From: an uncultured SAR86 cluster bacterium
GTDB lineage: Bacteria; Pseudomonadota; Gammaproteobacteria; Magnimaribacterales; Magnimaribacteraceae
Direction: 5' to 3'
DNA: 64,000 nucleotides
Assembly: GCA_902532015.1 (NCBI GenBank)
Contig: CACAGI010000004.1
Span: forward strand, 1 to 64,000
Part shown: piece by piece, positions 2,711-7,068 of the stretch
Layout of the letters: each line of letters opens with the position of its first letter
Position numbering within the stretch: position 1 is the first letter of the stretch
Notes under the pieces: model-generated
What the model saw: the letters and a program-made list of their open reading frames with translations, nothing else
Told to the model about the DNA's origin: nothing
The model's database searches: none
Program-made: the position numbers and the translations under genes

Positions 2711-3025
2711 ATGACAATACAAGCAGTAACTACATGGGAAGGAACCCCCAAAGCACTTGAAATTTTAGTAGAAGGCGCAAAACAGTCTGGGCCAATCCAT
2801 GAATCAATGGGTGCCAAGAATCCAAGACTATGGAGAGCCAGTTCAGGAGGAGATATAAGCCAAGCTTATTATTCAATTGAATTTGAAACCCAAGAAGAAT
2901 ATGGAAAATTTTCTGATGCCATGCTTGGTTCTGATTGGTGGAATGGAACTATAGAGTGGATCGGAGAAAACTATCCAGATTTAAGGAATCTTGGGACAAC
3001 GATTTATTATGATTCTATTAGTTAA
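2711..3025 (+). CDS. Small conserved-looking protein of unknown function
   Basis: A 104-residue protein preceded by a good ribosome site (GAAGGAAG about 5 bases before ATG). The sequence has alternating beta-like stretches, a central WRASSGGD, and a repeated pattern of aromatic residues (SDWWNGTIEW). The size and pattern resemble dimeric alpha-beta barrel (NIPSNAP- or monooxygenase-like) small proteins, but no family signature is clear enough to name it. No signal peptide. It stands alone, divergent from the oxidoreductase and followed by the structured non-coding region. Confidence 0.6.
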   Translation: MTIQAVTTWEGTPKALEILVEGAKQSGPIHESMGAKNPRLWRASSGGDISQAYYSIEFETQEEYGKFSDAMLGSDWWNGTIEWIGENYPDLRNLGTTIYYDSIS

Positions 3026-3066
3026 ATTATTTTAAATTTATACTATACAAATTAATTATATGTATA

Positions 3067-3072
3067 TATAAT
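3067..3072 (+). promoter_or_regulatory. Candidate -10 box of the structured RNA
   Basis: A perfect TATAAT lies here. Seven bases after it is G3080, exactly the first base of the first long stem of the structured region, which is where a sigma-70-type start would fall. The -35 region at the expected distance is poor (ACTATACA), so the promoter would be of the strong -10 kind. Confidence 0.5.
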
Positions 3073-3079
3073 TCTCGGT

Positions 3080-3336
3080 GATGTTAAGAGATTTTCAAAT
3101 TCTCCCCAGAATAAAACTCTTAAAACAGTACTTCTTTTAACATCAATTTAAACTGAGAGGTATATATTTCTCCCCAGAAAACCTCTCCAAGGTAACCTTC
3201 TCAGTTTATAGGCAGGATGTAGTTAGCACCCATTTATGCTAAACAAGCAAGAATTTTTCTGCATCCTGCTCCTCCATGGAAGATGGAGCTTTAAAAAATT
3301 AATTTTGGTTGGGCGCAGCTAGAGTTTCATCTTCCA
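3080..3336 (+). ncRNA. Candidate structured RNA with four tandem stem-loop domains
   Basis: This fills the 370-base gene-free gap between two CDSs. Four consecutive domains each have a long outer stem: 3080-3087 with 3137-3144; 3150-3157 with 3200-3207; 3212-3219 with 3262-3269; 3277-3285 with 3328-3336. Each also has an inner hairpin placed right after the 5' arm (3084-3090/3117-3123, 3155-3160/3182-3187, 3223-3228/3237-3242, 3287-3290/3317-3320). Domains 1 and 2 carry the same apical hairpin with a CCCC loop (3099-3112 and 3167-3180). Their closing pairs differ by compensation (A-T against T-A). I do not recognise it as tmRNA, RNase P, 6S, SRP RNA or a known riboswitch. It could be a small RNA or the leader of the thioesterase gene at 3398. 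Confidence 0.55.
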
Positions 3337-3397
3337 CCATTTAAATTCATAAACCCCACATCAATGGGTTAAAATTAAAATCAAAAGGAATTTAATA

Positions 3398-3814
3398 ATG
3401 AATGATCAAGATACGCTTCAGGCTTTTGAATCTAAGAAAGCACCTTGCACAGAGACTTTAGGAATGAAGGTAATTAATTATTCCTCTGAGCCTCCTTCTA
3501 TAGAAGCGGAGTTTGATGCAAGATTTGAATTCACCCATTCAGAAGGACAGGTAGTCCAGGGCGGATTTGTAGCAGGCATGCTAGATGCTCCGATGGCTCA
3601 TTTATTAATGGGACTTTTTGATTTTAAGGTGTTACCAATGACTTTGGATCTTAATGTAAGCTTTCTAGCTCCATCTAAACCAGGCAAACTTAACTGTACA
3701 GCAGAGGTTGTTCAATTAGGAAAAAGTACTGCTTTTATGGCAAGCAAACTTTATCAAGACGATACTTTAGTCGCAACGTCAACTTCTACAGTTAAGCTTA
3801 TAGCTATTGATTAA
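3398..3814 (+). CDS. PaaI-family hotdog thioesterase
   Basis: A 138-residue hotdog-fold protein. The stretch VQGGFVAGMLDAPMAHLL contains the helix and the acidic residue typical of PaaI/YbgC-type acyl-CoA thioesterases, and DLNVSFLAPSKPG is the usual following strand-turn. Such enzymes hydrolyse acyl- or aryl-CoA thioesters in the cytoplasm. The ribosome site AAGGAA lies about 9 bases before ATG. It is convergent with the acyl-CoA dehydrogenase gene, with only 3 bases between stops, and both suit acyl-CoA metabolism. The long upstream structured region may be its leader. Confidence 0.8.
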   Translation: MNDQDTLQAFESKKAPCTETLGMKVINYSSEPPSIEAEFDARFEFTHSEGQVVQGGFVAGMLDAPMAHLLMGLFDFKVLPMTLDLNVSFLAPSKPGKLNCTAEVVQLGKSTAFMASKLYQDDTLVATSTSTVKLIAID

Positions 3815-5032: not shown

Positions 5033-5187
5033 AATTCCTCTCCTTTTATTAGAAATCTCTACTAAGTGTAGTAATTTACGAGACATATTGGCCTCTTGCA
5101 AGCTTTAATATGGGGTAGAAATTAGTTCTTTTATTTTAATATAAGTAAAATTCATATTTATAATAAAAGAAAAGAATTGGGGAGAAA

Positions 5188-7068
5188 ATGAGTAAGTTAG
5201 TTGTAGTTTTTATAAGCAGTGTCTTTATTCTCATTGGTTGTGGGAAAAATTTAGAAATTGATTCTTTAAGAAAAATTAACCAAGGCGAATTAATAGGCCT
5301 AGAAGGTAAAAATGATACTTTTACCTGGAAGGGCATACCTTATGCAGAACCACCTATTGAAAATTTGAGATGGAAAGAAACTCAAAAAGCAAACCCTTGG
5401 GCAGGAAGATTTGAAGCAACAGAATTTAAGAATGCGTGCTTTCAAAGAGGTTCTATATTTGAAAATGACGAAAGTGCATGGAGTGGAAGTGAAGATTGTC
5501 TTTATTTAAACATTTGGACACCAAAGCTTTCACAAGAAGATATAGTAAACTCCGATAAGAAGTTACCAGTCATGATGTGGATACACGGAGGGGCCAATGT
5601 TGTTGGTAGTGCTCATACCTATGACCCTAGTGCTTTAGTATCAAATCACAATGTTATAGTCGTAACAATCCAATACAGAATGGGACCTTTCGGCTGGTTT
5701 AGACATCCCGCACTGCATGACGAAATGTCTACTTTAGAAGATAGATCAGGTAATTATGGAACTTTAGATACCATCACGGCTCTTAGATGGATCAATGAGA
5801 ATATCCATCATTTTGGTGGCGATCCTTCTAATGTAACTGTATTTGGAGAATCTGCTGGTGGTCATAATTCTGCTGCAATATTTGCATCGCCTCTTGCTCA
5901 AGGGTTATTTCATAAAGTTATTGTGGAGAGTGGAATCATGTCAGTTTCCTCTATTGAAGCCGCTGAAAGTTATTTACCAGAAGATGGCATAGCTCCAACG
6001 GTTAGTGGATTAGAAACCTTTAATCATTTACTTATACAAAATGGAAGAGCGAAAAGTATTGAGGAAGCAAAAGAAATACAAAATAGAATGACTCCCAAAG
6101 AAATTAAAGAATTGTTTTATGAACAACCGCCAGAAGCCTTAATGAGGGCTATGAATGAAGCGGGTCCAAAAAGAGATGGCATGACGAGAGTATTCCCGGA
6201 TGGTCTAGTTATTCTGTCAGGAGGTATAAAAGAAGCCTTTAATAATTCAAACTTCAAAAAGGTTCCTATTATTATGGGAACCAATAAAGATGAGAATAAA
6301 TTCTTTAATTCGATGAATAGAAATTTTGTTGAATGGGGTCCTGCAGAGGGTTTGTATAAAACAGCTGGTATAGAAGAAATGCCACTCAAGATTATTGACT
6401 TAGATTATTATGAGGCCATAAATTTTTATGGCTCTTCATTTTGGAAGCAAAGAGCTGTTGATACTCCATCAAGATTATTAGCTGAGTCAGGTCATGAACT
6501 AACCTATGCATACAGATTTGACTGGGATGAATTAAAAACTATTAATAATATGGACTTATCTCAGTTAATAGGAGCTGCTCATGCTATGGAGATACTTTTT
6601 GTATTTGGCTCTTTTGATAACTTTTTAGTAAAAAACTTCTTATTTGGAGAAGGGTCCTACCCAGCAGCTAAAAAACTTTCTGAACAAATCCAATCTTATT
6701 GGGCAGAATTTGCTTATACAGGAAGTCCTGGAAGAGGTAGGAATAATGATCTTACTGCATGGGAGAGCTGGTCACTAGGCACCGAAGGTAAATATCTTGT
6801 TTTAGATTCAGAAAATGATCAAGGGGTATTTATGTCAGATATTGAATATTCGGTAGATTATTTATTGAATACATTGCAATTTGATTCAAGATTAAATGAG
6901 CAACAAAAATGTGAAACTTTGTTTGGCCTATCTTATGGAGATGGAAACGGAATTTCTGATAAAGATTTTAATACTTTTATGAATGGAAGTTGTACTAGTC
7001 GTGATTATTCTTCTATTCTTGATATGATTGAGTCTGTTGAAGAAGAATTTATGAACAACCAAGACTAA
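5188..7068 (+). CDS. Carboxylesterase type B, predicted lipoprotein
   Basis: A 626-residue alpha/beta-hydrolase of the carboxylesterase/cholinesterase family. The N-terminus is a lipoprotein signal (hydrophobic stretch, then LIGC), so the enzyme is probably anchored outside the cytoplasmic membrane. GESAGG near residues 220-225 carries the nucleophile Ser222, WIHGG (about residue 131) forms the oxyanion hole, and SAWSGSEDCLYLNIW is the classic type-B signature. It likely hydrolyses esters of exported or imported organic compounds. A strong ribosome site (GGGGAGAA) lies directly before ATG. The isomerase and reductase genes follow with spacing of 14 bases and an 8-base overlap, indicating one operon. 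Confidence 0.9.
   Translation: MSKLVVVFISSVFILIGCGKNLEIDSLRKINQGELIGLEGKNDTFTWKGIPYAEPPIENLRWKETQKANPWAGRFEATEFKNACFQRGSIFENDESAWSGSEDCLYLNIWTPKLSQEDIVNSDKKLPVMMWIHGGANVVGSAHTYDPSALVSNHNVIVVTIQYRMGPFGWFRHPALHDEMSTLEDRSGNYGTLDTITALRWINENIHHFGGDPSNVTVFGESAGGHNSAAIFASPLAQGLFHKVIVESGIMSVSSIEAAESYLPEDGIAPTVSGLETFNHLLIQNGRAKSIEEAKEIQNRMTPKEIKELFYEQPPEALMRAMNEAGPKRDGMTRVFPDGLVILSGGIKEAFNNSNFKKVPIIMGTNKDENKFFNSMNRNFVEWGPAEGLYKTAGIEEMPLKIIDLDYYEAINFYGSSFWKQRAVDTPSRLLAESGHELTYAYRFDWDELKTINNMDLSQLIGAAHAMEILFVFGSFDNFLVKNFLFGEGSYPAAKKLSEQIQSYWAEFAYTGSPGRGRNNDLTAWESWSLGTEGKYLVLDSENDQGVFMSDIEYSVDYLLNTLQFDSRLNEQQKCETLFGLSYGDGNGISDKDFNTFMNGSCTSRDYSSILDMIESVEEEFMNNQD

Follow-up and report, generated by a model that had tools for sequence, protein, structure and literature searches.

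The window, a 64,000-nucleotide stretch of a contig from an uncultured SAR86 cluster bacterium, carries an intergenic stretch at positions 3026 to 3397, between an open reading frame (ORF) at 2711 to 3025 and a 4HBT thioesterase gene at 3398 to 3814 on the + strand. A structured noncoding RNA gene, identified by its fold, covariation, and homologues, occupies positions 3080 to 3342 of the + strand. The thioesterase gene lies outside the RNA and does not adjoin it in other genera. The upstream ORF, encoding 104 amino acids, is conserved and had no Pfam match; in one relative (G004, locus L010), a close homologue sits between tRNA-Pro and the RNA.

Immediately upstream, a promoter was recognized on the + strand (3044 to 3072), in which TATACA (3044 to 3049), a 17-base spacer, and TATAAT (3067 to 3072) give 10 of 12 matches to the consensus. 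The initial annotation had reported a TATAAT box, and the one found here does end 7 bases upstream of 3080. All 25 homologues checked with a complete 5' end retained TATACA, the 17-base spacer, and either TATAAT or TATGAT. The promoter looks constitutive, and the probable transcript would run from about position 3079 to about position 3342, approximately 265 nucleotides, with both ends predicted. In several assemblies, contigs stop inside this promoter (contig ends L036, L040, and L041). Promoter-like BLAST matches in other genomes (L036 to L051) were discarded, being either ends of contigs that carry the same RNA or chance matches.

Domain architecture and comparative support for the fold

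Four tandem stems had been proposed for this stretch, and all four were recovered. One unit, in which a closing stem encloses two mini-hairpins, UUCU-CCCC-AGAA and ACCU-CUCCA-AGGU, is present twice in tandem, as domains 1 and 2. In domain 1 (3080 to 3143, + strand), the closing stem pairs 3080-3089 with 3134-3143, 4 of its 9 pairs showing compensatory change, and the CCCC hairpin lies at 3100 to 3111; the second hairpin is degenerate in the window's genus and its closest relatives. Domain 2 (3151 to 3206, + strand) is closed by 3151-3158 pairing with 3199-3206 and carries both mini-hairpins, at 3168 to 3179 and 3181 to 3193. In the apical hairpin shared by the two domains, the outer pair is A-U in one copy and U-A in the other, the compensation that had been claimed. 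Since genus g2 and genome G011 (genus g7) possess a single unit, the number of units varies. In predicted folds, the C loops were unpaired (P of approximately 1.0) in most relatives from both RNA-bearing families, and the same value was obtained for the CCCC loop of domain 1; the CUCC loop was partly paired in locus L016.

Domain 3 (3212 to 3269, + strand) is a 12-pair stem with 5 compensated pairs and an unpaired CACCC (3227 to 3231) or CACCCA. The unpaired CACCC is a feature of the window's own family; in a second family (f3), domain 3 is replaced by a different, compensated stem. Domain 4 (3277 to 3336, + strand) is a 16-pair stem, 6 pairs of which are compensated, and encloses the hairpin GUUG-GGCG-CAGC (3308 to 3319), which is invariant in own-family four-domain sequences and retained as GUUGGGCG in the second family. 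A weak U-run after domain 4 in relatives marks it as a possible terminator. In genus g12 of the second family (L100 to L103, L108 to L113, L116, and L117), the stem of domain 3 pairs perfectly and runs into seven Ts, resembling a terminator, although conservation extends past it into domain 4; this genus could make transcripts of two lengths.

The predicted fold of the + strand from 3068 to 3345 had an energy of -81.4 kcal/mol, compared to -51.5 ± 4.4 kcal/mol for 200 dinucleotide shuffles, none of which reached the native value (z score of -6.83). The z score for the - strand was -1.61. Across an alignment of 20 four-domain sequences, RNAalifold predicted 56 pairs, 16 of them compensated, at -51.8 kcal/mol, and the reverse complement of the same alignment yielded -31.6. 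The four-domain structure was paired in 98.1% of alignment cells, a value that fell to 38 to 42% when pairing partners were slid, and its covariation score was 0.216 versus 0.128 ± 0.007 in shuffles. The outer stems contained 101 G-U cells and 1 A-C cell, identifying the + strand as the transcribed one. Fold energies and G-U/A-C counts together also ruled out a CsrA-like RNA with GGA loops on the - strand. This comparative evidence makes it nearly certain that the locus is an RNA gene with the structure described, and covariation, the absence of which would have refuted the structured RNA according to the initial annotation, is present. The same annotation had read near and far partners of the same 5' arms as a switch. 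Covariation, however, sits in the far (outer) stems; the near pairing of domain 2 is kept in just 71% of cells with no compensatory changes, and the near partner in domain 1 is present only in the window's genus. A near/far switch is therefore unsupported.

A function at the level of DNA, for example as a site of recombination or integration next to a hotspot, would account for the variable flanks described below, for an integrase-like ORF beside a divergent copy in locus L035, and for contigs ending inside the promoter. We regard it as scarcely credible: G-U pairs are retained on a single strand, the promoter is conserved, and the element is nearly always single copy and absent from viral and phage collections.

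Distribution and genomic neighborhood

A DNA search detected one copy in the window's genome and further copies in the majority of its family. With a covariance model based on domains 3 and 4, we searched 203 genomes of the order and recovered the RNA in 26 own-family genomes (E values of 1e-9 to 1e-33). Matches to 21 second-family genomes (genera g12 and g13; E values of approximately 1e-8), which the DNA search had missed, were unexpected. In these homologues, the stems of domains 1, 3, and 4 are largely different in sequence, and 12 of 30 pairs are compensated between g12 and g13. With the same model and genomes, families f2 and f4 and the f3 genera g9 and g17 yielded no copy of the RNA, nor did one occur within 1.5 kb of tRNA-Pro(GGG) in these groups. 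Named genome records with the domain 4 motif all belonged to the SAR86 cluster or marine Gammaproteobacteria. Two motif patterns had no match in viral contigs, and there was none in phage records, so a phage or viral origin was rejected. As far as searched, the RNA is confined to SAR86. Nearly every genome carrying the RNA has one copy. Genome G016 contains two copies of the locus (L026 and L028) that are 99.2% identical over 3.3 kb, probably an assembly or strain redundancy.

In genera g2 and g4, the RNA lies downstream of pheT-ihfA-merR-tRNA-Pro(GGG), with gene names inferred from translations. Elsewhere, the RNA is retained with a different flank on one or both sides. Copies in the second family lie behind an oxidoreductase-like gene, approximately 1.2 kb past tRNA-Pro(GGG), where the tRNA is in view. 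This shared neighborhood supports common ancestry of both RNA-bearing groups. Gene content varies at the junction between tRNA-Pro(GGG) and the RNA, which forms a hotspot (L009, L020, L021, L023, L025, L027, and L035); the genes there include Wzz/epimerase genes and, in L035, the integrase-like ORF by the tRNA end.

Genes downstream of the RNA encode, in different genomes, the thioesterase, Wzz/epimerase proteins, a metallo-hydrolase, a photolyase, or, in opposite orientation, a TPP-enzyme-like protein. In the second family (L098 to L117), the RNA ends a few to approximately 20 bases upstream of a photolyase-like start codon, a placement of domain 4 that would suit a riboswitch-like leader acting in cis on the gene that follows. 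A leader of this type is expected to keep a constant downstream gene or pathway; here, the downstream gene differs between genera and families, which nearly refutes the reading, and no competing helix with covariation was found. We therefore consider a cis-acting leader very unlikely. As neighbors change while the RNA persists, it is very likely an independent small RNA gene; its own promoter and its independence from neighboring genes are what is expected of a trans-acting small RNA (sRNA).

Comparison with known regulatory RNAs

Rfam searches of the window returned nothing at gathering scores, and six homologous loci returned only tRNA, as the initial annotation had anticipated in calling the family unrecognized. 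Scans of the window and of 3026 to 3397 with cmscan at E values up to 5 produced chance matches only, with no match to 6C. No tRNA or tmRNA was detected within the window. None of the papers covered by the literature search described a SAR86 small RNA. Judged by these sequence comparisons, the RNA family is undescribed and belongs to no known family tested.

The closest functional parallels are RNAs with exposed C-rich or pyrimidine motifs, and we propose by analogy that the SAR86 RNA may work like them. The actinobacterial 6C and the B11 RNA of Mycobacterium abscessus are structured sRNAs with two C-rich loops that act without an RNA chaperone and pair with G-tracts near start codons (PMC10470900 and its reference 42). 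The SAR86 RNA likewise exposes C-rich loops in hairpins, with CCCC and CUCCA unpaired in predicted folds. Unlike in 6C and B11, its C loops belong to small hairpins set inside a closing stem and tandem duplicated, and two further domains follow; moreover, no Rfam family, including 6C, gave a covariance match. In Staphylococcus aureus, the long RNAIII uses several C-rich hairpin loops to mask Shine-Dalgarno sites; the SAR86 RNA is unrelated to it in sequence and architecture, has no evident coding function, and produced no Rfam match. Yfr1 is much shorter and presents a single-stranded pyrimidine motif; the SAR86 RNA differs in its much greater length and, again, in lacking an Rfam match. Conserved in cyanobacteria and first described in marine picocyanobacteria, Yfr1 was reported to act on mRNAs of outer membrane proteins, among them porins and predicted TonB-dependent transporters (PMC6974561).

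Repeated hairpins could alternatively serve as docking sites for a protein that the RNA binds or titrates, following the logic of CsrB/RsmZ or 6S RNA, and not as antisense seeds. The tandem-duplicated invariant hairpin pair and the invariant domain 4 hairpin are typical of protein sites. CsrB and RsmZ also consist of repeated hairpin units, and csrA occurs throughout f1 and f3, the same two families that carry the RNA, and was undetected in f2 and f4 among the 203 genomes. However, the + strand loops are CCCC, CUCCA, and GGCG; they are C-rich and contain no GGA, so that this strand would not be expected to bind CsrA, and there was no Rfam match to these families. Furthermore, two f3 genera that yielded no copy of the RNA, g9 and g17, do carry csrA, and the overlap between csrA and the RNA may therefore reflect one shared ancestry event. 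6S RNA, a regulatory RNA conserved in Gammaproteobacteria and comparable in size class, is a single long hairpin with a central bubble; its fold is different, and the window had no RF00013 match. 6S RNA is moreover encoded separately in SAR86 genomes, including by its own gene elsewhere in the window's genome. On balance, we think a protein-binding role rather unlikely. The distribution of csrA itself (f1 and f3 versus f2 and f4) suggests loss or gain on one branch.

Candidate pairing with Shine-Dalgarno sequences

An Hfq-dependent sRNA presupposes a host that encodes Hfq. Hfq (PF17209) was not detected in 15 SAR86 genomes, while control genomes were positive, and a C-rich, chaperone-free design makes sense for this reason. 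The RNA may well be a trans-acting, Hfq-independent sRNA that pairs with Shine-Dalgarno sequences through its C-rich loops, a reading to which we give about even weight. We infer transcription, pairing in the cell, repression, and a regulon as follows. The constitutive-looking promoter would drive the RNA, and its one or two C-rich units would hold CCCC and CUCCA in the loops of rigid mini-hairpins. These loops, like the 16S rRNA tail, complement purine-rich Shine-Dalgarno sequences, and the RNA therefore probably pairs with ribosome-binding sites of the GGGGAG type. Pairing at such sites would block translation of sets of genes, the best candidates being those for TonB-dependent receptors and hydrolytic or catabolic genes (DUF3604-like, carboxylesterase, serine hydrolase, and acyl-CoA enzyme genes). 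Domains 3 and 4 might contribute stability, 3'-end formation, or protein binding.

The closed genome of a relative (G010) was read whole, using naive gene-start calls in which the choice of start codon mildly favors purine-rich upstream sequence. At positions -20 to -2, the most enriched 7-mer was GGGGAGA, the complement of UCUCCCC, with 14 occurrences versus 0.65 expected (21.5-fold); AAGGAGA was enriched 11-fold. GGGG was the 4-mer most associated with TonB-dependent receptors (10 of 13 versus 52 of 1,501 starts; P = 1.7e-12), and GGGGAG preceded 6 of the 13 receptor genes versus 17 of the 1,501 other starts. Other carriers of GGGG resembled genes for DUF3604 proteins, carboxylesterases, serine hydrolases, and acyl-CoA enzymes.

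Pairing of loop 1 with G010 starts was reached by 3 of 60 shuffles overall and by none for receptors; for loop 2, the corresponding numbers were 0 and 1 of 60. The domain 3 segment paired with starts no better than shuffles. For the domain 4 segment, 23 of 60 shuffles reached the overall pairing and 1 of 60 that for receptors. These values bear on whether the RNA is instead a structural or housekeeping RNA, for example, ribosome associated or tRNA related, with incidental Shine-Dalgarno complementarity. The strong promoter, the near-invariance of GUUGGGCG and UCUCCC across two families, and the ancestral location beside tRNA-Pro(GGG) would all agree with such a role. Against it, the loops pair with starts better than shuffles do, and two SAR86 families and two f3 genera yielded no copy of the RNA, so it is not essential to the order. 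A housekeeping role is accordingly improbable in our estimate.

A general objection to anti-Shine-Dalgarno pairing is that any C-rich loop resembles the anti-Shine-Dalgarno sequence. Genomes without the RNA served as a control. GGGGAGA before ATG outnumbered its reversed control whether or not the RNA was present, and to a similar degree; the counts were 275/131 in the window's own family and 82/29 in f3 genomes with the RNA, compared to 40/10, 74/31, and 46/30 in f3 genomes without it, f2, and f4, respectively. GGGG preceded 15 of 30 receptor genes in f2 and f4 and 24 of 42 in the own family (P = 0.63). Only the longer GGGGAG distinguished the two groups, being found at 11 of 42 own-family receptors and 1 of 30 in f2 and f4 (P = 0.011, uncorrected, with several motifs tried); in the second RNA-bearing family it occurred at 3 of 30 receptors and does not stand out. 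As G-rich sites are equally common in SAR86 without the RNA, the motif is not explained by the RNA alone. These sites are therefore a SAR86 trait that the RNA could exploit, and the receptor motif, weakened by the RNA-minus families, was set aside as proof of a regulon. A TonB receptor regulon is accordingly put forward only tentatively. Also speculative is a SAR86-specific global riboregulator, Hfq free and equipped with duplicated anti-Shine-Dalgarno hairpins, that would tune translation of TonB receptor and lipid/steroid catabolism genes, possibly competing with CsrA for G-rich sites.

SAR86 is a major, abundant lineage of the surface ocean with few isolates. Its pool of transporters is dominated by TonB-dependent receptors (PMC11582366). 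Should the pairing model be correct, the RNA would regulate nutrient uptake posttranscriptionally in a streamlined organism with no detectable Hfq. With its covariance model, promoter, and concrete seed, the family is defined well enough to be searched for in metatranscriptomes and tested by reporter assays.

Within the window, a candidate target site, TTGGGGAGAAAATG (5174 to 5190, + strand), lies at the start of a carboxylesterase gene (5188 to 7068) and is a perfect complement of UUCUCCCC. The site is present in some, not all, orthologues, and the gene was dropped as a conserved target on account of this partial conservation. TonB-dependent receptor genes of SAR86, including those of families without the RNA, often use a GGGG-type rather than an AGGAG Shine-Dalgarno sequence (L158 to L237 of G010, and L238 to L327).
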